From Sandaracinus sp. (lineage in GTDB: Bacteria > Myxococcota_A > Polyangia > Polyangiales > Houyiibacteriaceae), in NCBI GenBank assembly GCA_002699025.1, contig PABA01000218.1, forward strand, positions 1 through 34,990: 34,990 bases of DNA, written 5' to 3'. Of this stretch, positions 13,039-23,110 are shown one piece after another. The notes beneath the pieces were generated by a model. It saw only the letters and a program-made list of their open reading frames with translations, did no database searches and was not told the DNA's origin. Position 1 is the stretch's first letter; the number at the start of each line of letters is the position of its first letter. A program made the position numbers and the translations under genes.

Positions 13039-14907
13039 TCAGTCTTCCGTCGGGGTGGTCTGGTCGACGGGCTCCCAGCCGCGCTCGGCCAGCGCGGCGA
13101 GGGTCTCCTCCGCGCGCTTCTCGTCGACCAGGACGCCCACCGCGTCCTTCCGGCCGATGGGCGTGCTCAGCGCGATGGGCTCGGCCCGCCGCTTCCGCCG
13201 CCGCACCAGCGGCAGATAGAGCGGGTGCCGATCCTCCTTGGAGAAGAGCCCGGCCTGCCCGCCCTTCTCGCCGGTGAAGCGGAAGTAGCGCACGCGCGCC
13301 TGCCCGTTCTCGAGCAGGTGCTTCCAGGCGTCGAGCTGGAGCACGCCCCCAAAGGCGACGTCGGCGCCGGCGCCCTTCACGTGCTCGGGCGTCACGCCGG
13401 AGCTCCAGCGCGAGAGCGCCACGAGGAAGCGCAGATCCCGGTTCTCGGGCCGCGCGCCGCGCACGAAGAGGAGGTTCACCTCCTCGTTGCTGGTCGTGGC
13501 CACCGCGCCCCGCCGCGTGTCGAGCTTCGCCTTCTTCCACGTGCCGTGCTCGATGGCGTTGCCGAGCACGGCGCGGAAGCCCGCCTCCTCGGCCGCCTGG
13601 ACGGCGTCGGGCTTGTCGTCGACGAGGACGACCTCCTCCTCGACGCTCGTGAGCTCCTTCGCGAGGGCGAGGCCGACCGGGTTCGCGCCGATCAGGACCC
13701 AGCCATGGCCCTTCTGCCGGCGCAGGCCGAGCACCATGGCGACGAGCGGGCCCGTCACGCCGGCCCAGACGACCGTCACGGCGATCACCGAGAAGACGAG
13801 CGCCCGGAGCGCCACGCCGCCCTCGACGCCGGCGTTGTCGAGGCTGATCGAGAAGAGCGAGGCGACGGCGGCCGCGACGATCCCGCGCGGGCCGATCCAG
13901 CCGACGAAGATGCGCTCCTTCGCCGTGAGGTCCGAGCCCCAGGCCGACGCGGCGACCGCCAGGGGCCGCACGACGAGCACCAGCACGGCGATCACCACGA
14001 GCGCCGCCGGCCCGAGAGCCCAGACGTCGTCGAGGCGTACGTCGGCCGCGAGGAGCACGAAGAGCAGGCCGATGAGGAGCGCCGTGAGCTGCTCCTTGAA
14101 CTCGACGAGCTCCTTGTGGATGAGCGTCGGGCTGTTGCCCACGACGATGCCCGCGACCGTGACGGCGGCGATGCCCGACTCGTGGAAGGCGACGTTCGAG
14201 CCCTGGAAGATCAGCATCGCGAAGCCGAGGACGAAGACGTTCTCGAGGCCCTCCGGGACCAGACCGCGCCAGCGGAGGAGGAGCGCGATGAAGCCGCCGC
14301 CGACCACGCCCACGGCCGCGCCGAAGGCCAGCCGCCCGGCCACCGCCGGGAGCGCGAGGGCGACCGACTCGCCGGTGGGGCGGAGCACGATCTCGAGGGC
14401 GACGGCGGCGGCGATGGCGCCGATGGCGTCGATGAGCACGCCCTCCGCCTCGAGGAGCGTGGCGACCTTGCGCTGCGCCCGGAGGCGCGCGAGGAGCGGG
14501 GTGACGACCGTGGGGCCGGTGACGATGACGAGCGTGCCGAAGAGGAGCGAGAGCTTCCAGCCCCAGCCGAGGGCGAGGGCCGCGACGAGGGCGGCGCCGG
14601 TCGCCGTGATCAGCACGCCGAGGGTGAGGAGCTGCCAGAGCGCGCGGCCGGCGCGGCGGAGGCGCGCGAGGCGGAGGTTCAGCCCGCCCTCGAAGAGGAT
14701 GACCGCGACGGCGAAGCCGACGAGCTCGTGGAGCCCGCTGCCGAGCGCGTCCGGCACGACCACGTTCGCGCCGTCGGGCCCGAGGGCGACGCCGACGGCG
14801 AGGAGGAGCACGATGCCCGGGACGGCGAGGTGCCGCGCGAGCGCCTGGCTGAGGATGCCCGCGGCCAGCGCGGCGCCGACGACGAAGCCCGGGGTGTCCA
14901 GGGTCAC
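13039..14907 (-). CDS. CPA-type cation:proton antiporter with C-terminal TrkA-N-like domain
   Basis: 622 residues from the GTG at 14907. The membrane domain (about 1-405) has about 12 helices with family signatures GPTVVTPLLARL, EGVLIDAIGA (the ion-translocation Asp) and GWIGPRGIVAAAVASL. The C-terminal domain (about 410-590) is a Rossmann-like NAD-binding TrkA-N region with a degenerate glycine motif (GANPVG), expected to gate transport by nucleotide binding. The start is uncertain. A GTG at 15009 would add 34 residues, mostly His/Gly/Ser coded by a GGGCAC simple repeat that also occurs in non-coding DNA at 3583-3617. A TACGAC sequence 6 nt before 14907 weakly favours the shorter form. It is expected in the inner membrane, exchanging Na+ or K+ for H+. 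Confidence 0.9.
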   Translation of the reverse strand: MTLDTPGFVVGAALAAGILSQALARHLAVPGIVLLLAVGVALGPDGANVVVPDALGSGLHELVGFAVAVILFEGGLNLRLARLRRAGRALWQLLTLGVLITATGAALVAALALGWGWKLSLLFGTLVIVTGPTVVTPLLARLRAQRKVATLLEAEGVLIDAIGAIAAAVALEIVLRPTGESVALALPAVAGRLAFGAAVGVVGGGFIALLLRWRGLVPEGLENVFVLGFAMLIFQGSNVAFHESGIAAVTVAGIVVGNSPTLIHKELVEFKEQLTALLIGLLFVLLAADVRLDDVWALGPAALVVIAVLVLVVRPLAVAASAWGSDLTAKERIFVGWIGPRGIVAAAVASLFSISLDNAGVEGGVALRALVFSVIAVTVVWAGVTGPLVAMVLGLRRQKGHGWVLIGANPVGLALAKELTSVEEEVVLVDDKPDAVQAAEEAGFRAVLGNAIEHGTWKKAKLDTRRGAVATTSNEEVNLLFVRGARPENRDLRFLVALSRWSSGVTPEHVKGAGADVAFGGVLQLDAWKHLLENGQARVRYFRFTGEKGGQAGLFSKEDRHPLYLPLVRRRKRRAEPIALSTPIGRKDAVGVLVDEKRAEETLAALAERGWEPVDQTTPTED

Positions 14908-14967
14908 GGGGGAGTCGTACCACGCGGGGGGGTGAGCGCCTGCCCAAGACCCGTGCCCGTGCGACGA

Positions 14968-15002
14968 CCCGTGCCCGTGCCCGTGCCCCTGCCCCTGCCC
15001 GC
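14968..15002. repeat. 35-bp dispersed repeat (inverted copy of 3583-3617)
   Basis: Exact reverse complement of 3583-3617. It lies immediately upstream of the antiporter, or within its N-terminus if the GTG at 15009 is used. On the minus strand it would read as a Gly-His/Gly-Gln repeat. Confidence 0.85.
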
Positions 15003-15058
15003 CGGTCACCGAGGTCGTCGGATCTGCCGAGTAGTGGCACGTGGGCCAGGCCCTTCCG

Positions 15059-15640: not shown

Positions 15641-15719
15641 TCTCGGGAGGCTCGCGTCGTCGTTGACGACGGGTCCTGATCCGCCTGCCGGTCGCGCTCC
15701 GTCTACCGGTCGCGCTCCG

Positions 15720-16031
15720 GCTGCCGCTTGGGCTCCAGCTGCCGCTCTTGCTCCGGCTTTCGCTTGGGCTCTAGCTGCCGCTCTTGCTCCGGCTGCCGCT
15801 CTTGCTCCGGCTGTCGCTCTTGCTCCGGCTGCCACTCTTGCTCCAGCTGCCACTCTTGCTCGAGCTGCCGCTCTTGCTCCGGCTGCCGCTCTTGCTCCGG
15901 CTGCCGCTCTTGCTCCGGCTGCCGCTCTTGCTCGAGCTGCCGCTCTTGCTCGAGCTGCCGCTCTTGCTCGAGCTGTCGCTCTTGGCCCAGCTGCCGCTCT
16001 TGCTCGAGCTGCCGCCGCCGCTCTTGCTCCG
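15720..16031. repeat. 18-bp minisatellite, 16 contiguous units plus one lengthened unit
   Basis: Consensus GCTGCCGCTCTTGCTCCG. Sixteen units run without any length change from 15720 to 16007, with only substitutions (such as CCG to CGA or CCA at the end). A seventeenth unit carries a 6-bp insertion, and the array then decays into GCTCCG. It begins 31 bp downstream of the stop of the minus-strand EamA gene. All frames on both strands are open because the period is a multiple of three (one minus frame reads EQERQP), but no start codon or signal supports translation. Confidence 0.92.
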
Positions 16032-16061
16032 GCCGCCGCTCCGGCTCCCGCTCCCCCACCC

Positions 16062-16919
16062 CTACAGCTGCAGCGACGTCCCCACGATCATCGCCCCCAC
16101 CGCGCCGATCTTCCGCCCGTTCACCGGCTCCCCGAAGAGCAGCCGCCCGAGCACCACGGACGCGGTCAGGCCTACGGCGCGTTTCAGCGTCTCGATCACG
16201 GGGACCAGCTCGCTCGCGAAGGAGAGGAGCTGGAAGCCGAGCGCCGCGGCGGCGAAGAGGACGGCCAGGCCGTAGAGCCCCGGCGCCTCCCGGAGGTGGC
16301 CGAGCGCGCCGAGCTCGCGCCGCGCGGCGAGGAGCGCGAGGAGGACCACGCCGGTGCCTGCGTTCAAGAGGCCCGCGTGCACGGCGGGGGTCGCGTGGTC
16401 GAGGCAGAGCTTGTCGAGGTTGCCGGTCACGGCCCAGATGGCGGCCACCCCGATCATCATCGCGCTCCCGGGCTCCTCCCGCAGCCCCCGCCAGAGCCCG
16501 CCGCGATGCAAGAAGAGCGCGCCCGCGACGACCGCTCCGATCCCCGCCCCCTGCCGCGCGCTCGGGAGCTCGCCGAGGAGGAGGGCCGAGCCGGCCACGG
16601 CGAAGACGGGGGTGAGCGCGAGGAAGGGCACGGTCAGGCTCAGCGGCGAGACCTGCACGGCGCGCACGAAGAGCAGGTTCGCGCCGATCTGGAGGAGCAG
16701 CGTCGCCACGCCGGGCAGCACCCAGCCGACCTCGAGCCGCGTCTCGCTCAGCGCGATCCAGCCCCCGAAGAAGGGGAGCTGGCCGAGCGTGAGCAGGACC
16801 ACGAGGGCCACGGGGCCGCTCCAGGCACCGTCGAAGCGCGCCGTGAGCTGCTTCCGCACGGCGTCGAGGCCCGCGAAGGCGAGCGCCGCGACGAAGCCGT
16901 AGGCGAGCCCGAGGCTCAC
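16062..16919 (-). CDS. EamA/DMT-superfamily transporter
   Basis: 285 residues, about ten hydrophobic helices in two halves (about 1-137 and 150-285), the two-EamA-domain arrangement of drug/metabolite transporters. The second half ends with the usual GEPVNGRKIGAVGAMIVG signature just before the last helix. The start is GTG at 16919, preceded by a purine-rich GGGAGCGGGGGC that can serve as a Shine-Dalgarno site. The substrate cannot be predicted. It diverges from the fusion enzyme at 16970 with only 50 bp between them, so the promoters must overlap. Confidence 0.9.
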   Translation of the reverse strand: MSLGLAYGFVAALAFAGLDAVRKQLTARFDGAWSGPVALVVLLTLGQLPFFGGWIALSETRLEVGWVLPGVATLLLQIGANLLFVRAVQVSPLSLTVPFLALTPVFAVAGSALLLGELPSARQGAGIGAVVAGALFLHRGGLWRGLREEPGSAMMIGVAAIWAVTGNLDKLCLDHATPAVHAGLLNAGTGVVLLALLAARRELGALGHLREAPGLYGLAVLFAAAALGFQLLSFASELVPVIETLKRAVGLTASVVLGRLLFGEPVNGRKIGAVGAMIVGTSLQL

Positions 16920-16956
16920 GCCCCCGCTCCCGCTTCGCCGCCGCGGCGCCGGCTGC

Positions 16957-16962
16957 TACGGT
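16957..16962 (+). promoter_or_regulatory. Candidate -10 box TACGGT for the fusion enzyme
   Basis: TACGGT lies 7 nt before the GTG at 16970, with no Shine-Dalgarno sequence. The spacing equals that at 269-274 and 3683-3688. Confidence 0.45.
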
Positions 16963-16969
16963 CGACCCC

Positions 16970-19966
16970 GTGACCCAAGGCAACGACGGGCCCGGCCCGA
17001 AGCGGCCGAGTCGCTGGCAGCGCCGCCTGCAGCGCCTCAGCCTCGGCGCGCGCAACGCCCTCGAGATCGCCCGCTTCGGGCGCCTCACGGAGCCCTACCA
17101 GGCGCCCTTCCACGTCCACCATCAAGAGCGCACCTTCCGCCTGCGCCGCTACGACGGCCAGTCGCCGGTGGACCCGATCCCCGAGCCGATCCTCCTGGTG
17201 CCGCCGCTCATGGTCGCCAGCGAGGTCTACGACATCTCGGCCGAGATCAGCGCCGTCAGCGTGCTCCTCCGCGCGGGCGTCGACGTCTGGCTCTGCGACT
17301 TCGGGGCGCCGGAGCGCGAAGAGGGCGGCATGGAGCGCACGCTCGACGATCACGTGCGCGCCGTCAGCCGCGCCGTCGATCTCGTCGCCGAGGCCACGGG
17401 CCAGAACGTGCACCTCGCCGGCTACTCGCAGGGCGGCATGTTCTGCTACCAGGCCGCCGCCTACCGCCGCTCCCATGGCCTCGCCTCGGTCATCACCTTC
17501 GGTAGCCCCGTCGACATCCACCGCAACCTCCCGAACGTCGGCGAGGGCGCGGCCGAGCAGCTCATCCGCGCGCTCGAGTCGGTCATCAGCAAGCCCCTCG
17601 AGGAAGTGGAGGGTCTCCCGGGCTTTCTGACCAGCACCGGCTTCAAGGTGCTCAGCCTCCGCAAGGAGGTCGGCCAGCTCGTCGACTTCGTCACCAAGCT
17701 CCACGACCGGCAGGCGCTCGAGAAGCGCGAGAGCCGGCGCCGCTTCCTCGGCGGCGAGGGCTTCGTGGCCTGGCCGGGGCCGGCGCTCCGCAAGTTCATC
17801 GACGAGTTCATCGTCCACAACCGCATGATCAGCGGCGGCTTCGTGATCGACGGGCGCACCGTGACCCTCGCCGACATCACCTGCCCGGTGCTCTACTTCG
17901 TCGGTCAGCGCGACGACATCGCGCGCCCCCAGAGCGTGCAGGCGGTGCAGCGCGCGATCCCGGACGGGGAGCTCTTCGAGGTGGGGATCCCGGCGGGGCA
18001 TTTCGGGCTCGTCGTCGGCAGCAAGGCGCTGGCGCAGACCTGGCCGACGGTGATCGAGTGGATGCGCTGGCGCCAGGGGACGGGCGAGCGACCGCTCCGG
18101 CTCCGGGACGAGGCGCAGACGGAGCCGCTCGAGGATCCGGAGGTCGCCGCCTTCGGGGAGATCGACGTGGACCTCGAGCTCTTCGTCGACGCCGTGACGG
18201 ATACGGTCGGCGCGCTCTGGAACCGCTTCGGGCAGTGGGTGGACGACGCGGGCGACGCGGCCAAGAGCCTCCGCTTCCAGCTCCCGCGGCTCGGGCAGCT
18301 CGAGCGCCTCGACGCCGGCACGCGCGTGAGCGTGGGGCGCACGCTGGGCGAGCGGGCGAGCGAGGGGCCGGACCGCACCTTCTTCCTCTGGCGGAGCCGC
18401 GCCTTCACCTTCGGCGACGCGGACCGGCGCGTGGACGCGATCGTGAAGGGCTTCTGGCGCTGCGGCGTGCGGCCCGGGGACAAGGTCGGCGTGCTCATGG
18501 GCGCGCGGCCCAGCCTGCTCACGGCGGTGACGGCCCTCAACCGGCTCGGCGCCGTGACCGTGCTGCTCCGGCCGACGGACTCGGAGGCGCACCTGAAGGA
18601 GGCGCTCCGGCTCGGGCAGGCGGGGGCCTGCGTGGCCGACCCGGAGCATGCGGAGGCGCTCCGGCGCGTGCACGCGGGCGACGTGCTCGTCCTCGGCGGC
18701 GGCGGGCCCGAGCGCGCGGTCGGCGCCGTGGACGTGATCGACATGGAGGCCATCGACCCGGACGAGGTGCGGCTCCCGGCGGACTTCGAGCCGAACCCGG
18801 GGCGCGCCAAGGACCTGGCGATGATCCTCTTCGGCGCGGCGCGCGCGGGCGGGGGGCTCCGGGCCATCCGCATCACGAACGGGCGCTGGGCCTTCTCGGC
18901 GCTCGGCGCGGCGGCGGCATGCACGCTCACGCCCGACGACACGGTCTACGCGGCCCTGCCGCTCCACCAGGCGGGCGGCATGCTGGTGACGGTCGGCGCG
19001 GCGCTGGTCGGCGGGGCGCGGCTCGCGCTCGCGGACGGCATCCAGGGGGGCGGCTTTCCGCCGGGGCTGGCCGACGACCCGGCGCCCTTCTGGCGCGAGG
19101 TGCGCCGCTATGGGGCGACGGTGGTCTTCTACGCGGGCGAGATGTGCCGCTCGCTGGTGAACGCGCCTTTCCATCCGGCGGACGCGACGACGCCCGTGCG
19201 CCTCTTCGCCGGCAGCGGCATGAAGCCGGCCGTCTGGCAGGCCATCGAGGACCGCTTCGACTCGGGTGTGCTCGAGTTCTACGCGAGCTCGGAGGCGAAC
19301 GCGGTGCTCGCGAACGCCTCGGGCACGAAGGTGGGCTCGGTGGGGCGGCCGCTCCCGGGCAGCGCGGACATGGCGCTGGTGGCCTGGGACTTCGCGAACG
19401 GCGCGCTGCGGCGCGACGGAGACGGGCGCGGGCGGCGCGTGGAGGTCGGGCGGCCGGGCGTCTTGATCTCGCGCCTCGACGAGACGCATCCGGGCTTCCA
19501 CGGCGGCGATGGGGGCGAGCGCGTGGCGCGCGACGTCTTCGCGGAGGGCGACCGCTGGTGGATCAGCGGAGACGTGCTCGAGGTGGACGCGGACGGCGAC
19601 CACTGGTTTCGCGGGCGCCTCTCGGAGGTCCTGATGCGTGAGGGGCAGCCGGTCTTCGCGCGGGACGCGGAGGTGGCGCTGGACGCGGCCGAGGGCGTGG
19701 CCATCGCGGTGGTCTTCCCGCGGGAGGGGAAGCTGGCGGCGGTGGTGGTGCCGGCGCGCGGCGCGACCCTGGACGCTGGGGTGCTCTCGACGGCCCTGGC
19801 GGACCTGCCGGCCGCGCGGCATCCGGACGAGGTGGCGGTCGTGGCGGCGGAGGCGATCCCGCTGACGGACGGCTATCGGCCGCTGAAGGGGGAGCTCCGG
19901 TCGCGCTGGGGCGTGGCGTTCCAGCCGACCTTCGCGCGCCGCGGGAGCGCCTGGGGCGCGGCGTGA
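16970..19966 (+). CDS. Fusion: PhaC-like alpha/beta hydrolase plus acyl-CoA-synthetase-like (AMP-binding) domain
   Basis: 998 residues, GTG start. Residues about 20-370 form an alpha/beta hydrolase like class III PHA synthase: nucleophile motif GYSQGG (Ser153, where PHA synthases have Cys), acid at Asp315/316 (GQRDD) and His344 (PAGHFG). Residues about 455-990 have the layout of FATP-type acyl-CoA synthetases: GVRPGDKVGVLM, EFYASSEAN (769-777), SGDVLEVDADGDHWFRGR (866-883) and a late Lys973 in RPLKGE. The adenylation P-loop, normally T-S-G-T-T-G-x-P-K, reads ILFGAARAGGGL (619-630), so ATP-dependent acyl activation is doubtful. Fusions of this length are known in actinobacteria, annotated as acyl-CoA synthetase. 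A role in lipid or polyester metabolism is inferred. No other lipid genes are adjacent. Confidence 0.88.
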   Translation: MTQGNDGPGPKRPSRWQRRLQRLSLGARNALEIARFGRLTEPYQAPFHVHHQERTFRLRRYDGQSPVDPIPEPILLVPPLMVASEVYDISAEISAVSVLLRAGVDVWLCDFGAPEREEGGMERTLDDHVRAVSRAVDLVAEATGQNVHLAGYSQGGMFCYQAAAYRRSHGLASVITFGSPVDIHRNLPNVGEGAAEQLIRALESVISKPLEEVEGLPGFLTSTGFKVLSLRKEVGQLVDFVTKLHDRQALEKRESRRRFLGGEGFVAWPGPALRKFIDEFIVHNRMISGGFVIDGRTVTLADITCPVLYFVGQRDDIARPQSVQAVQRAIPDGELFEVGIPAGHFGLVVGSKALAQTWPTVIEWMRWRQGTGERPLRLRDEAQTEPLEDPEVAAFGEIDVDLELFVDAVTDTVGALWNRFGQWVDDAGDAAKSLRFQLPRLGQLERLDAGTRVSVGRTLGERASEGPDRTFFLWRSRAFTFGDADRRVDAIVKGFWRCGVRPGDKVGVLMGARPSLLTAVTALNRLGAVTVLLRPTDSEAHLKEALRLGQAGACVADPEHAEALRRVHAGDVLVLGGGGPERAVGAVDVIDMEAIDPDEVRLPADFEPNPGRAKDLAMILFGAARAGGGLRAIRITNGRWAFSALGAAAACTLTPDDTVYAALPLHQAGGMLVTVGAALVGGARLALADGIQGGGFPPGLADDPAPFWREVRRYGATVVFYAGEMCRSLVNAPFHPADATTPVRLFAGSGMKPAVWQAIEDRFDSGVLEFYASSEANAVLANASGTKVGSVGRPLPGSADMALVAWDFANGALRRDGDGRGRRVEVGRPGVLISRLDETHPGFHGGDGGERVARDVFAEGDRWWISGDVLEVDADGDHWFRGRLSEVLMREGQPVFARDAEVALDAAEGVAIAVVFPREGKLAAVVVPARGATLDAGVLSTALADLPAARHPDEVAVVAAEAIPLTDGYRPLKGELRSRWGVAFQPTFARRGSAWGAA

Positions 19967-19980
19967 GGAGAGGTGGCCGG

Positions 19981-20112
19981 GCCGCGGCCGCATCGTGAGC
20001 GCCAGTGTCAGCGCCGCGGCCGCATCATGAGCGACGGCGTCAGCCGTCGCTCCAGCGTCCGCCATGAGCTCAGCGCCTCAGCTGTAGCTCGGCGTCTCAG
20101 CCGTCGCTCCAG
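19981..20112. repeat. Repeat/hairpin block between convergent genes
   Basis: A 31-bp unit beginning GCCGCGGCCGCATC at 19981 recurs at 20013. The 15-base CAGCCGTCGCTCCAG occurs at 20041-20055 and 20098-20112. The last copy ends at the stop codon of the minus-strand TPR gene. The block fills most of the 146-bp convergent gap and contains the hairpin at 20029-20052. Confidence 0.75.
20029..20052. terminator. Bidirectional hairpin between convergent genes
   Basis: GAGCGACGGC and GCCGTCGCTC form a perfect 10-bp stem with a GTCA loop. It lies between the stops at 19966 (plus) and 20113 (minus). There is no T-run, so intrinsic termination would be weak. Confidence 0.5.
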
Positions 20113-21240
20113 CTAGTTCGTCGATTGTCCGAGGGCGTCCAGGCGGTCGCGGGCGCGGACGGCGCCGTGCGCGTAGGCGGGGTCGCCCTCGACCAGGTTG
20201 AGGAAGGTGCGCAGCGCGCGGGCGGCCTCGTCGAGGTCGCGGCGATCGCGCGGCTCTTCCTGCAGCAGCACCGCGAGGTCGAACCAGGCCTCGGGTCGGT
20301 CCGGCGCCACCTCGATGGCGCGGAGGTACGAGGCGCGCGCTTCGTCTGCGCGGCCCAGGGCCCGGAGCGCGATGCCGCGGACGACGAGGGCGTCGTAGCT
20401 CGCCGGGTCCTGCGCGAGGGCGCCGCGGGAGAGGCGCTCGGCCTCCTCGTAGTCGCGGTGGGCGAGGGCGACCTGGCCGTGGCGCAGCCAGGCGTCGATG
20501 AGGCCCGGGTCCAGCTCGCGCGCGCGCTCGAGGCTCTGGAGACCCTCGGGGAGGCGGCCGCGGGCGAGGTCCGCGAGGCCGCAGCCGTGCCAGCTCGCCG
20601 CGCGCCGCGGGTCCACGTGCAGGGCCTGGCGGCAGGCCAGGGCGGCGAGCTCGGGCTCCCCGGCGGCCAGGTGGGCGCGGGTGAGCGCGTCGAAGGCGCG
20701 GGCCCGTTCGGCGCCGGTGGCCAGGGCGAGCGCGTCCCGGGCCGCGGCGGTCGCGTCGGCCCCGCGGCCGAGCTCCCCGAGGAGCCGCGCCTGCGCGAGG
20801 GGGGCCTCGACGCAGCGCGGGTGTGCGCGGCGGGTGGCGCGAAGCTGGGCTTCGGCGGCGGGGGCGTTGCCGAGGGTCCGGAGGGCGGCGGCGAGCTGGA
20901 CGCGCGGGAGGCAGGCGTCCGCCTCGCGAAGGCTCGCCGCGAGGAGGGCGCGGGCTCTCGCGGGGGCCTCGCAAGCCAGCGCCGCGCGGCCGGCCCGCGC
21001 GAGCCTCGCGGCCCCCTCGGGGGGCGCCTCGGCCAGCCGCTCCAGCAGGGCGGGGCAGCGCGCCGGGTCCTCGTCGCTCTCCCAGAGCGCGAGGAGCGCC
21101 TCGGTCGGCGCCCCCGGATCCGCGTCGGGCAGCGCGGGCGCGCTGGGCGGGGCCGCCGTCACCGGAGCGGCCGTCACCGGAGCGGCTTGCGCGCCGCCGC
21201 AGGCGCCGAGGCAGAGCAAGAGCGGGAGAACGAAGCGCAC
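20113..21240 (-). CDS. TPR-repeat lipoprotein
   Basis: 375 residues, GTG start at 21240; the nearby ATG at 21253 is out of frame. A short signal ends in lipobox LGAC (Cys14). A 15-bp repeat then codes AAPVT twice. From about residue 45 the protein is a run of tetratricopeptide-like helix pairs, clearest at about 165-345 (AWLRHGQVALAHRDYEEAERLSRGALAQ, ALVVRGIALRALGRADEARASYLRAIEVAPDRPEAWFDLAVLL). TPR lipoproteins in myxobacteria serve as assembly or pilotin-like factors at the outer membrane, but nothing here identifies the partner. No operon partner is evident; upstream lie degenerate copies of the Rieske gene tail. Confidence 0.88.
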   Translation of the reverse strand: MRFVLPLLLCLGACGGAQAAPVTAAPVTAAPPSAPALPDADPGAPTEALLALWESDEDPARCPALLERLAEAPPEGAARLARAGRAALACEAPARARALLAASLREADACLPRVQLAAALRTLGNAPAAEAQLRATRRAHPRCVEAPLAQARLLGELGRGADATAAARDALALATGAERARAFDALTRAHLAAGEPELAALACRQALHVDPRRAASWHGCGLADLARGRLPEGLQSLERARELDPGLIDAWLRHGQVALAHRDYEEAERLSRGALAQDPASYDALVVRGIALRALGRADEARASYLRAIEVAPDRPEAWFDLAVLLQEEPRDRRDLDEAARALRTFLNLVEGDPAYAHGAVRARDRLDALGQSTN

Positions 21241-21370: not shown

Positions 21371-21594
21371 GGGGCGCCGGGCGGCGGGACGACGTAGACG
21401 CTTCCCGGCGCACCTCGACGGTGTCTGGGCGAAGTCCTCCTGCCCCCGCCGACCAAGCGCCAGGCCGTGCGGTCGCGGCTCAGTCGACGACGGGCGGCAG
21501 GACCACGTAGACGCTTCCCGGCGCACCTCGACGGTGTCCGGGCGAAGCCCCCCCGCAGCCGCCGACCAAGCGCCAGGCCCGACGCGGTCGCGGC
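21371..21594 (-). pseudogene. Two degenerate tandem copies of the 3' end of the Rieske gene
   Basis: Two units of about 113 bp (anchor ACGTAGACG at 21392 and 21505) are about 90% identical by eye. The second abuts the true gene end, whose matching anchor ACGTACACG is at 21620. On the minus strand the middle copy still reads VYVVLPPVVD-stop against VYVVPPPVGD-stop in the intact gene. Upstream of that it carries DTVEV against DAVEV, separated by a 7-bp deletion that breaks the frame. Homology to the gene covers about 50-70 bp of each unit; the rest (GACCAAGCGCCAGGC) is particular to the repeats. They are not expected to be translated. Together with flanks they fill the 354-bp gap 21241-21594. 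Confidence 0.75.
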
Positions 21595-21966
21595 TCAGTC
21601 GCCGACGGGCGGCGGCACCACGTACACGACGCCGTCCTCCTCGAGCACCTCGACGGCGTCGAGCGCGTCGCCGGAGCAGGGGCCCTCGATGCAGTAGCCG
21701 TCGTGGAGGCGGAACTTCGCGCCGTGCGTGCCGCAGAAGAGGTGGGCGCCGTGCTCGTCGAAGAACTCGCGGCTGCCGCCGTCGATGGGGATCGGCAGGT
21801 GCTTGCAGAGGTTCACCCAGCAGCGGACGTCGCCGCGCCCGTCGATGAGCACGAGCCCCTCGCGGGGGAGCCCGTGGCGATCCTTGCCGAGGGCCACGAC
21901 CTTCACCAGGCCAGGCCGAAGCTCTTCCCGTGGGCAGACCCGCACGCGCTCGCTCACCTCGCTCAC
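21595..21966 (-). CDS. Rieske [2Fe-2S] domain protein
   Basis: 123 residues, GTG start. The cluster-binding motif is complete: C54-x-H56 in LCKH and C78-x-x-H81 in FCGTH, separated by 21 residues, slightly longer than the usual 15-17. The length is that of a stand-alone Rieske ferredoxin, as used to feed electrons to ring-hydroxylating oxygenases, or a related small redox protein. No signal peptide is seen, so it is cytoplasmic. Its GTG overlaps the upstream TGA (GTGA, 21963-21966), and GGGAGG lies 6 nt before the start, so it is translationally coupled to the phosphoesterase. No oxygenase or reductase gene is nearby. The 3' end has been duplicated downstream (21371-21594). Confidence 0.88.
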   Translation of the reverse strand: MSEVSERVRVCPREELRPGLVKVVALGKDRHGLPREGLVLIDGRGDVRCWVNLCKHLPIPIDGGSREFFDEHGAHLFCGTHGAKFRLHDGYCIEGPCSGDALDAVEVLEEDGVVYVVPPPVGD

Positions 21967-22789: not shown

Positions 22790-23110
22790 GGTCGCGAGCG
22801 TGGAGCTCGAGCCGTCATCGTGGAGCGCGAGCGGCCATCGTGGAGCGCGAACCGGGAGCGTGGAGCCCGAGATCGAGCGCGGACCTCGAGCGGGCAGTGT
22901 GGAGCCCAAGTGGGCAGCGGCGAGCCCAAACGGGCAGCGTGGAGCCCGAGCTCGAGCGCGGAGCCCAAGTGGGAGCGTGGAGCCCGAGCTCGAGCGCGAG
23001 CCCGAGCGGGGAGGCGTGCCCAGCCCTCGAGCCCCAGCGTGGAGCGCGAGCGGCGAGCCTCAGCTCGAGCGGCGTATCGGGAGCCCGAGCGACGAGCCAC
23101 CAGAAGCGAG
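22790..23110. repeat. Degenerate tandem array of about 20-bp GTGGAGC units in a divergent promoter region
   Basis: The plus strand repeats CGTGGAGC(C/G/T)CGAG with spacers of about 20 bp and multiples (for example near 22799, 22820, 22840, 22859, 22899, 22940 and 22977). Units alternate with GAGCTCGAGCG and CCCAAGTGGGCAG. The strand is strongly purine-biased. The array occupies the middle of the 588-bp gap 22665-23252 between the phosphoesterase (minus) and the Cys-rich lipoprotein (plus), and no gene is supported there. Confidence 0.75.

Follow-up and report, generated by a model that had tools for sequence, protein, structure and literature searches.

The question raised by this locus is whether the adenylating half of a large fusion protein still activates acids and, if it does not, what it may do for the hydrolase to which it is joined. 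The gene lies on contig PABA01000218.1 of a Sandaracinus species; the whole stretch of 34,990 nucleotides that was analysed is referred to as the window. An earlier, sequence-only reading had proposed that its product joins a PhaC-like serine hydrolase to an acyl-CoA-synthetase domain in which acid activation has been lost, and this proposal is strongly supported by the sequence comparisons given below: three catalytic elements of the ANL-type half (the P-loop, the A8 hinge and the catalytic Lys) are missing jointly in all 97 relatives that lack any one of them. The protein is laid out as follows:

16970..19966, + strand: whole fusion gene, 998 amino acids, GTG start
16970..18094, + strand: α/β-hydrolase half with PhaC fold, residues 1-375 (hydrolase proper about 20-375)
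18095..18325, + strand: variable linker with one long helix (403-446), residues about 376-452
18326..19909, + strand: FATP-like ANL domain with N- and C-terminal subdomains, residues about 453-980

The open reading frame 16970-19966 is a real gene, because the GC content at third codon positions (GC3) in its frame is 0.966 and because the NCBIfam model NF005898 (PRK07868) matches residues 17-979 (profile positions 9-955 of 994, E 4.9e-270). Pfam places Abhydrolase_1 at residues 96-179 and AMP-binding at 461-807 (E 8.7e-33). An antisense open reading frame (16916-20065, 1049 amino acids) was discarded as a shadow frame of a high-GC gene on the basis of its codon-position GC content.

Joint loss of three catalytic elements

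Relatives were collected within the same phylum (282 genomes, 52 with a match at E <= 1e-60), in a wide search (84,980 species genomes, 583 of them encoding candidates, of which the best 80 were kept) and in actinobacteria (396 genomes, 20 with a match at E <= 1e-150). The aligned set (n=112) is divided into 15 proteins with all three motifs, namely 11 fusions and 4 standalone FATP-like proteins, and 97 proteins with none, the latter from Myxococcota and Actinomycetota and including the Sandaracinus fusion. A sequencing error or an oddity of one genome was ruled out, the loss being present in 97 aligned proteins. The positions concerned are:

18833..18862, + strand: destroyed P-loop (A3 motif), residues 622-631, GAARAGGGLR in place of TSGTTGLPK
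19613..19660, + strand: degenerate A8 hinge, residues 882-897, GRLSEVLMREGQPVFA in place of DRxGDTFRWKGENVST
19877..19879, + strand: Arg970 at the position of the catalytic A10 Lys
19886..19888, + strand: Lys973, a second, non-catalytic Lys three residues past Arg970

Residues 619-630 of the Sandaracinus fusion read ILFGAARAGGGL. Aligned to the TSGTTGLPK of a related intact fusion, the P-loop site is G-A-A-R-(A)-G-G-G-L-R, which bears out the P-loop loss proposed earlier, and the pattern (T/S)SG(T/S)TGxPK is matched by 0/97 members of the clade. The KGEN-type A8 motif is likewise missing from 97/97, Arg883 itself being present in the Sandaracinus fusion and in 66/97. At the A10 region, PLTDGYRPLKGEL of the Sandaracinus fusion is paired by HMMER with PTTGSGKILKGEV of the solved CoA ligase 8weu; the Lys of its SGK is thereby aligned with R970, which is therefore the position of the catalytic Lys. 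In this column Lys is found in 15/15 proteins of the intact set and Arg in 97/97 of the P-loop-less set. The late Lys that the sequence-only reading had taken for the retained catalytic residue is thus the non-catalytic K973, which is not conserved (Thr in Actinomadura). With the catalytic Lys also lost, the argument for inactivity is stronger than that reading had made it.

The weight of these losses can be judged from ANL enzymology. In P-loop mutants of 4-chlorobenzoyl-CoA ligase, activity was lost 2,000-fold (Thr), 1,000-fold (Gly) or completely (Pro), with the A10 Lys named as the key catalytic residue (PMC8388817). All four residues are missing from the Sandaracinus fusion. The ANL half should consequently make neither acyl-AMP nor acyl-CoA, because it has lost ATP phosphate binding, the Lys used for adenylation and its hinge. 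Against the FATP-type synthetase model PRK08279, an intact relative (L088) scored 594 bits and the Sandaracinus fusion 240 bits. The Sandaracinus genome itself holds 23 AMP-binding matches; the four loci at which a TSGT motif was detected have an intact P-loop, and a standalone FATP-like enzyme (locus L002) with an intact P-loop carries TTGTFKVQK at its A10 region.

The history of the loss was read from a tree of the ANL half in which the standalone FATP-like proteins served as outgroup. Fusions without a P-loop are monophyletic in the full ANL tree (SH-aLRT 98) and also in a tree built under a mixture model after exclusion of the three motif regions (99 bootstrap, 96 SH-aLRT), and the 11 intact fusions branch basally. 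Homologues with an intact P-loop, which the sequence-only reading had named as a finding that would refute its proposal, do therefore exist, but since they branch outside the P-loop-less clade they preserve the ancestral condition and are no evidence against the loss. The check that it had suggested, whether the P-loop loss is conserved in actinobacterial fusions of roughly 1,000 residues, came out positive: 22/22 extra actinobacterial rows (20 new genes after removal of one duplicate and one repeat of L101) have no P-loop and carry Arg. As judged from these alignments and trees, the loss of the three ANL elements is single, ancient and maintained in two phyla. For close pairs within the clade, pairwise dN/dS values of the ANL half (0.065-0.366, simple Nei-Gojobori values in high-GC genes and therefore rough) lie mostly slightly above those of the hydrolase half; the dead half is accordingly under purifying selection.

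As an observation in its own right, the earliest-branching P-loop-less fusion (L128:1713-4568, + strand) has TSGRSGQPR at this site, midway between the intact and the destroyed P-loop. The C-terminus of this protein diverges near the contig end, possibly by a frameshift.

Predicted fold and hydrolase half

An AlphaFold2 model of the whole Sandaracinus fusion (53 sequences) had a mean pLDDT (the per-residue confidence) of 88.2 and a pTM (the global confidence) of 0.88, with pLDDT falling below 50 at residues 390-410 of the linker, the region in which the entropy of the fusion alignment is also highest. The second half is predicted with high confidence to be a complete ANL fold of two subdomains: its model matched PDB entry 5ie0 with Z 38.7 over residues 452-982 (474 residues aligned, root-mean-square deviation 2.4), and its best PDB sequence match was FATP2.

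Folded alone, the hydrolase half reached a mean pLDDT of 88.9. The best seven PDB entries were all PhaC (Z 30-33; 9knl Z 33.1, 5xav Z 32.2), followed by gastric and lysosomal acid lipases at Z about 25 (next best 25.6). The catalytic residues are:

17420..17437, + strand: nucleophile elbow GYSQGG, residues 151-156, with Ser153
17912..17914, + strand: Asp315, acid of the triad
17999..18001, + strand: His344, base of the triad

The elbow was aligned with GFCVGG of PhaC 5hz2, so that Ser stands where the polyhydroxyalkanoate (PHA) synthase has Cys, just as the sequence-only reading had it; the Ser-Asp-His set that it had recognised (Ser153, Asp315, His344) is invariant in 108/108 fusions, and the nucleophile is Ser in the 22/22 extra actinobacterial rows as well. 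The hydrolase half is PhaC-like and not a PhaC, because it lies far under the PhaC family cut-offs (TIGR01836: 131 bits, cut-off 365).

Unfused counterparts of the two halves were also seen. A standalone hydrolase of 347 amino acids (L122:5295-6335, + strand, genome G090, contig 1), 46% identical to the hydrolase half of the fusion, has no ANL match in the surrounding 11 kb; its genome is congeneric with one that encodes an intact fusion (L038), and the protein is either a product of secondary loss or an unfused form. In the Sandaracinus genome (G000, contig C117, about 34945-37627), an intact AMP-binding gene directly precedes a PhaC-like gene with the Cys elbow GYCMGG, that is, an unfused pair of acid-activating and PhaC-like genes.

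The retained ANL fold and its competing explanations

Other ANL positions, outside the lost elements, were compared as well:

18959..18970, + strand: A4 region PLHQ, residues 664-667, with Gln667
19211..19219, + strand: GSG, residues 748-750, clade-specific change of Asn749 to Ser
19274..19294, + strand: A5 motif EFYASSE, residues 769-775
19565..19573, + strand: A7 motif SGD, residues 866-868, with the ribose-binding Asp

The FATP-like EFYASSE motif is thus retained, in agreement with the sequence-only reading. Pocket-type residues are nearly fixed in the derived clade (A4 His 96/97, R639 97/97, Y721 96/97, E769 97/97), a role in the acyl pocket being ascribed to the A4 His (PMC8388817), and residue 749 is Ser in 96/97 derived proteins and Asn (GNG) in 14/15 intact ones. 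The nucleotide site is eroded in part. Glu775 is present in 81/97 and lost in 16/97, Asp868 is present in 86/97 and lost in 11/97, and most of the extra actinobacterial members show erosion of at least one of the two (E775D, D868 lost). Because the nucleotide site is eroded in many members and the assigned acyl-pocket positions are kept, the pattern favours binding of an acyl group over binding of an adenylate, as far as sequence conservation can indicate; the structure model holds no docked ligand, and the statements on the pocket rest on motif alignment only.

The explanation that we consider probable is that the fusion acts as a lipid hydrolase or acyltransferase of the serine type, to which a conserved pseudo-synthetase half is attached; this half would keep its fold and acyl pocket so that an acyl ligand can be bound, positioned or sensed. 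The sequences show that the ancestral fusion carried all ANL motifs and that a single branch lost the P-loop together with the A8 hinge motif and with the catalytic Lys, which became Arg. The ancestor would have activated an acid and passed it on to the hydrolase, as may still happen in the intact fusions. The half with the PhaC fold and its Ser-Asp-His set would either hydrolyse a fatty acyl ester or thioester or transfer its acyl group, via a Ser-acyl intermediate, and the ANL half, presumably no longer making acyl-AMP or acyl-CoA, would act as its acyl-binding, positioning or sensing module. We put forward only tentatively the more specific proposal that a single event turned the synthetase half of an ancestral activate-and-transfer enzyme into a pseudo-enzyme which binds a ligand and gates or feeds the attached PhaC-type serine acyltransferase or lipase; this widespread two-phylum family would then have an acyl sensor derived from a dead synthetase.

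The following points weigh against the acyl-binding explanation. A tree built from the hydrolase half alone does not separate the two groups cleanly, with 3 label changes instead of 1; it was rooted on a very remote PhaC paralogue (branch 5.0), which makes root and polarity unusable, and the tree of the ANL half was relied on. In the pairs nearest to the Sandaracinus fusion, dN/dS is 0.29-0.34, and the ANL half looks looser there. The A4 position of the acyl pocket is Gln in the Sandaracinus fusion itself. Glu775 and Asp868 are retained in many members, the Sandaracinus fusion included, and some nucleotide binding may remain. Clustering of the neighbours at 80 loci gave no family-wide conserved neighbours and hence no clue to a substrate, and no biochemistry was found for any family member in the openly accessible literature.

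It is unlikely that the ANL half is merely a structural or oligomerisation scaffold that binds no ligand. Progressive erosion of the nucleotide site in many actinobacterial members would fit a scaffold, as would that of the hinge and the higher entropy of the C-terminal subdomain (2.05, hydrolase 1.39); the fixed pocket-type residues (GSG, A4 His, R639, Y721, E769) and the replacement of Lys by Arg at position 970 in 97/97, with no drift, speak against it. A partial reaction, in which acyl-AMP made in trans is passed to CoA or to the hydrolase, is less probable still. Such a supply is suggested by an intact FAAL-like gene 57 bp upstream of the fusion on the same strand at most Actinomadura loci and by the retention of Y771 and the ribose-binding Asp868 in many members, among them the Sandaracinus fusion; the second half-reaction requires the A8 hinge, however, which is degenerate as well, Asp868 is lost in many actinobacterial members, and the FAAL-like neighbour is absent in Tsukamurella and from the Myxococcota loci examined.

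There is little to recommend the annotation at face value, i.e., an ATP-dependent acyl-CoA synthetase with an unusual phosphate-binding loop and Arg970. The curated NCBIfam equivalog does bear the name acyl-CoA synthetase, and the A5 and A7 motifs are retained in the Sandaracinus fusion, but the P-loop Thr, Gly and Pro, the catalytic Lys and the A8 motif, most of them reported to be critical (PMC8388817), are missing from 97/97. Least credible of all is a fusion of the OleBC type, in which a β-lactone decarboxylase and a β-lactone synthetase serve olefin biosynthesis. The order of the domains is the same, an α/β-hydrolase followed by an ANL domain, but the hydrolase half has a PhaC fold with a Ser-Asp-His triad in place of the OleB type without Ser nucleophile, the ANL half is FATP-like (PRK08279 240 bits, PRK09274 45 bits), and neither oleA nor oleD was seen beside the fusion, the nearest genes being those of an EamA protein, a Na/H exchanger, a TPR protein and a metallophosphoesterase. 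An OleBC identity was rejected on these grounds.

Gene surroundings and known systems

In the window, the fusion gene is flanked by genes for an EamA transporter (16062-16919) and a TPR protein (20113-21240). Both are on the opposite strand, and the fusion is therefore a single-gene unit; no PHA genes adjoin it. Further out, a gene for a Na/H exchanger with a TrkA_N domain, an arrangement like that of K+/H+ antiporters (13039-15009, - strand), adjoins a strong tandem repeat array of 18-base/54-base units (15680-16055; 18.7 copies of 18 bases, 86% match) that separates it from the EamA gene. Two more arrays lie at 21378-21628 (113-base unit, 2.2 copies, 89% match) and 22795-23097 (degenerate, 20/40/79 bases).

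Among the 80 loci clustered, conserved neighbours were found mainly within genera or close groups. In a Kofleriaceae-type group, an FHA protein with a Trans_reg_C domain is encoded immediately upstream of the fusion. At most Actinomadura loci the upstream FAAL-like gene has intact motifs (TSGSSGAPRG, SSGK), and a cytochrome P450 gene follows the fusion on the same strand (L103:1706-3406, + strand, FAAL-like; L103:6493-7872, + strand, P450); the three genes possibly form a small lipid-modifying operon. In Tsukamurella, a P-loop-less fusion is preceded by genes for acetyl-CoA acetyltransferase and methylmalonyl-CoA epimerase.

With the OleBC proteins of olefin biosynthesis (PMC7158056), the family shares the hydrolase-ANL fusion architecture; it differs from them in an unrelated hydrolase subfamily and nucleophile, a different ANL subfamily and the lack of an ole cluster. 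With PhaC of Classes I and III it has in common the fold and the Ser/Cys-Asp-His layout, but Ser replaces the Cys of GxCxG (108/108) and an ANL domain is attached. In sequence the ANL half comes closest to very-long-chain acyl-CoA synthetases of the FATP or FadD6-like type (PRK08279, FACL6 of M. tuberculosis, human FATP2), with which the EFYAxxE motif is shared and of which FACL6 is a proven synthetase (PMC4260918); unlike these, the fusion has no P-loop, no KGEN hinge at A8 and Arg in place of the catalytic Lys.

A close known system is also the NF005898/PRK07868 equivalog itself, which matches both halves over the full length and whose actinobacterial members have the same length, domain order and three losses as the Sandaracinus fusion. 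The latter lies below the curated cut-off (898.4 bits, cut-off 925), as do, slightly, several clear relatives from the search of the same phylum. No paper on a hydrolase-ANL fusion of this kind was found in the openly accessible literature; the family is already in NCBIfam, and its pseudo-synthetase nature, with living intact relatives, appears to be unreported in that literature. The name acyl-CoA synthetase implies an activity whose residues the members lack and is probably wrong for the fusion family, and metabolic reconstructions of many Myxococcota and Actinomycetota that follow it probably assign an ATP-dependent activity to proteins without the residues needed. The family offers a clean case of an enzyme turned pseudoenzyme: basal intact fusions survive, the loss is a single event, all members examined carry the same Arg replacement, and selection maintains the dead domain. 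The role of the pseudo-adenylating domain is therefore directly testable by comparison of two natural proteins.

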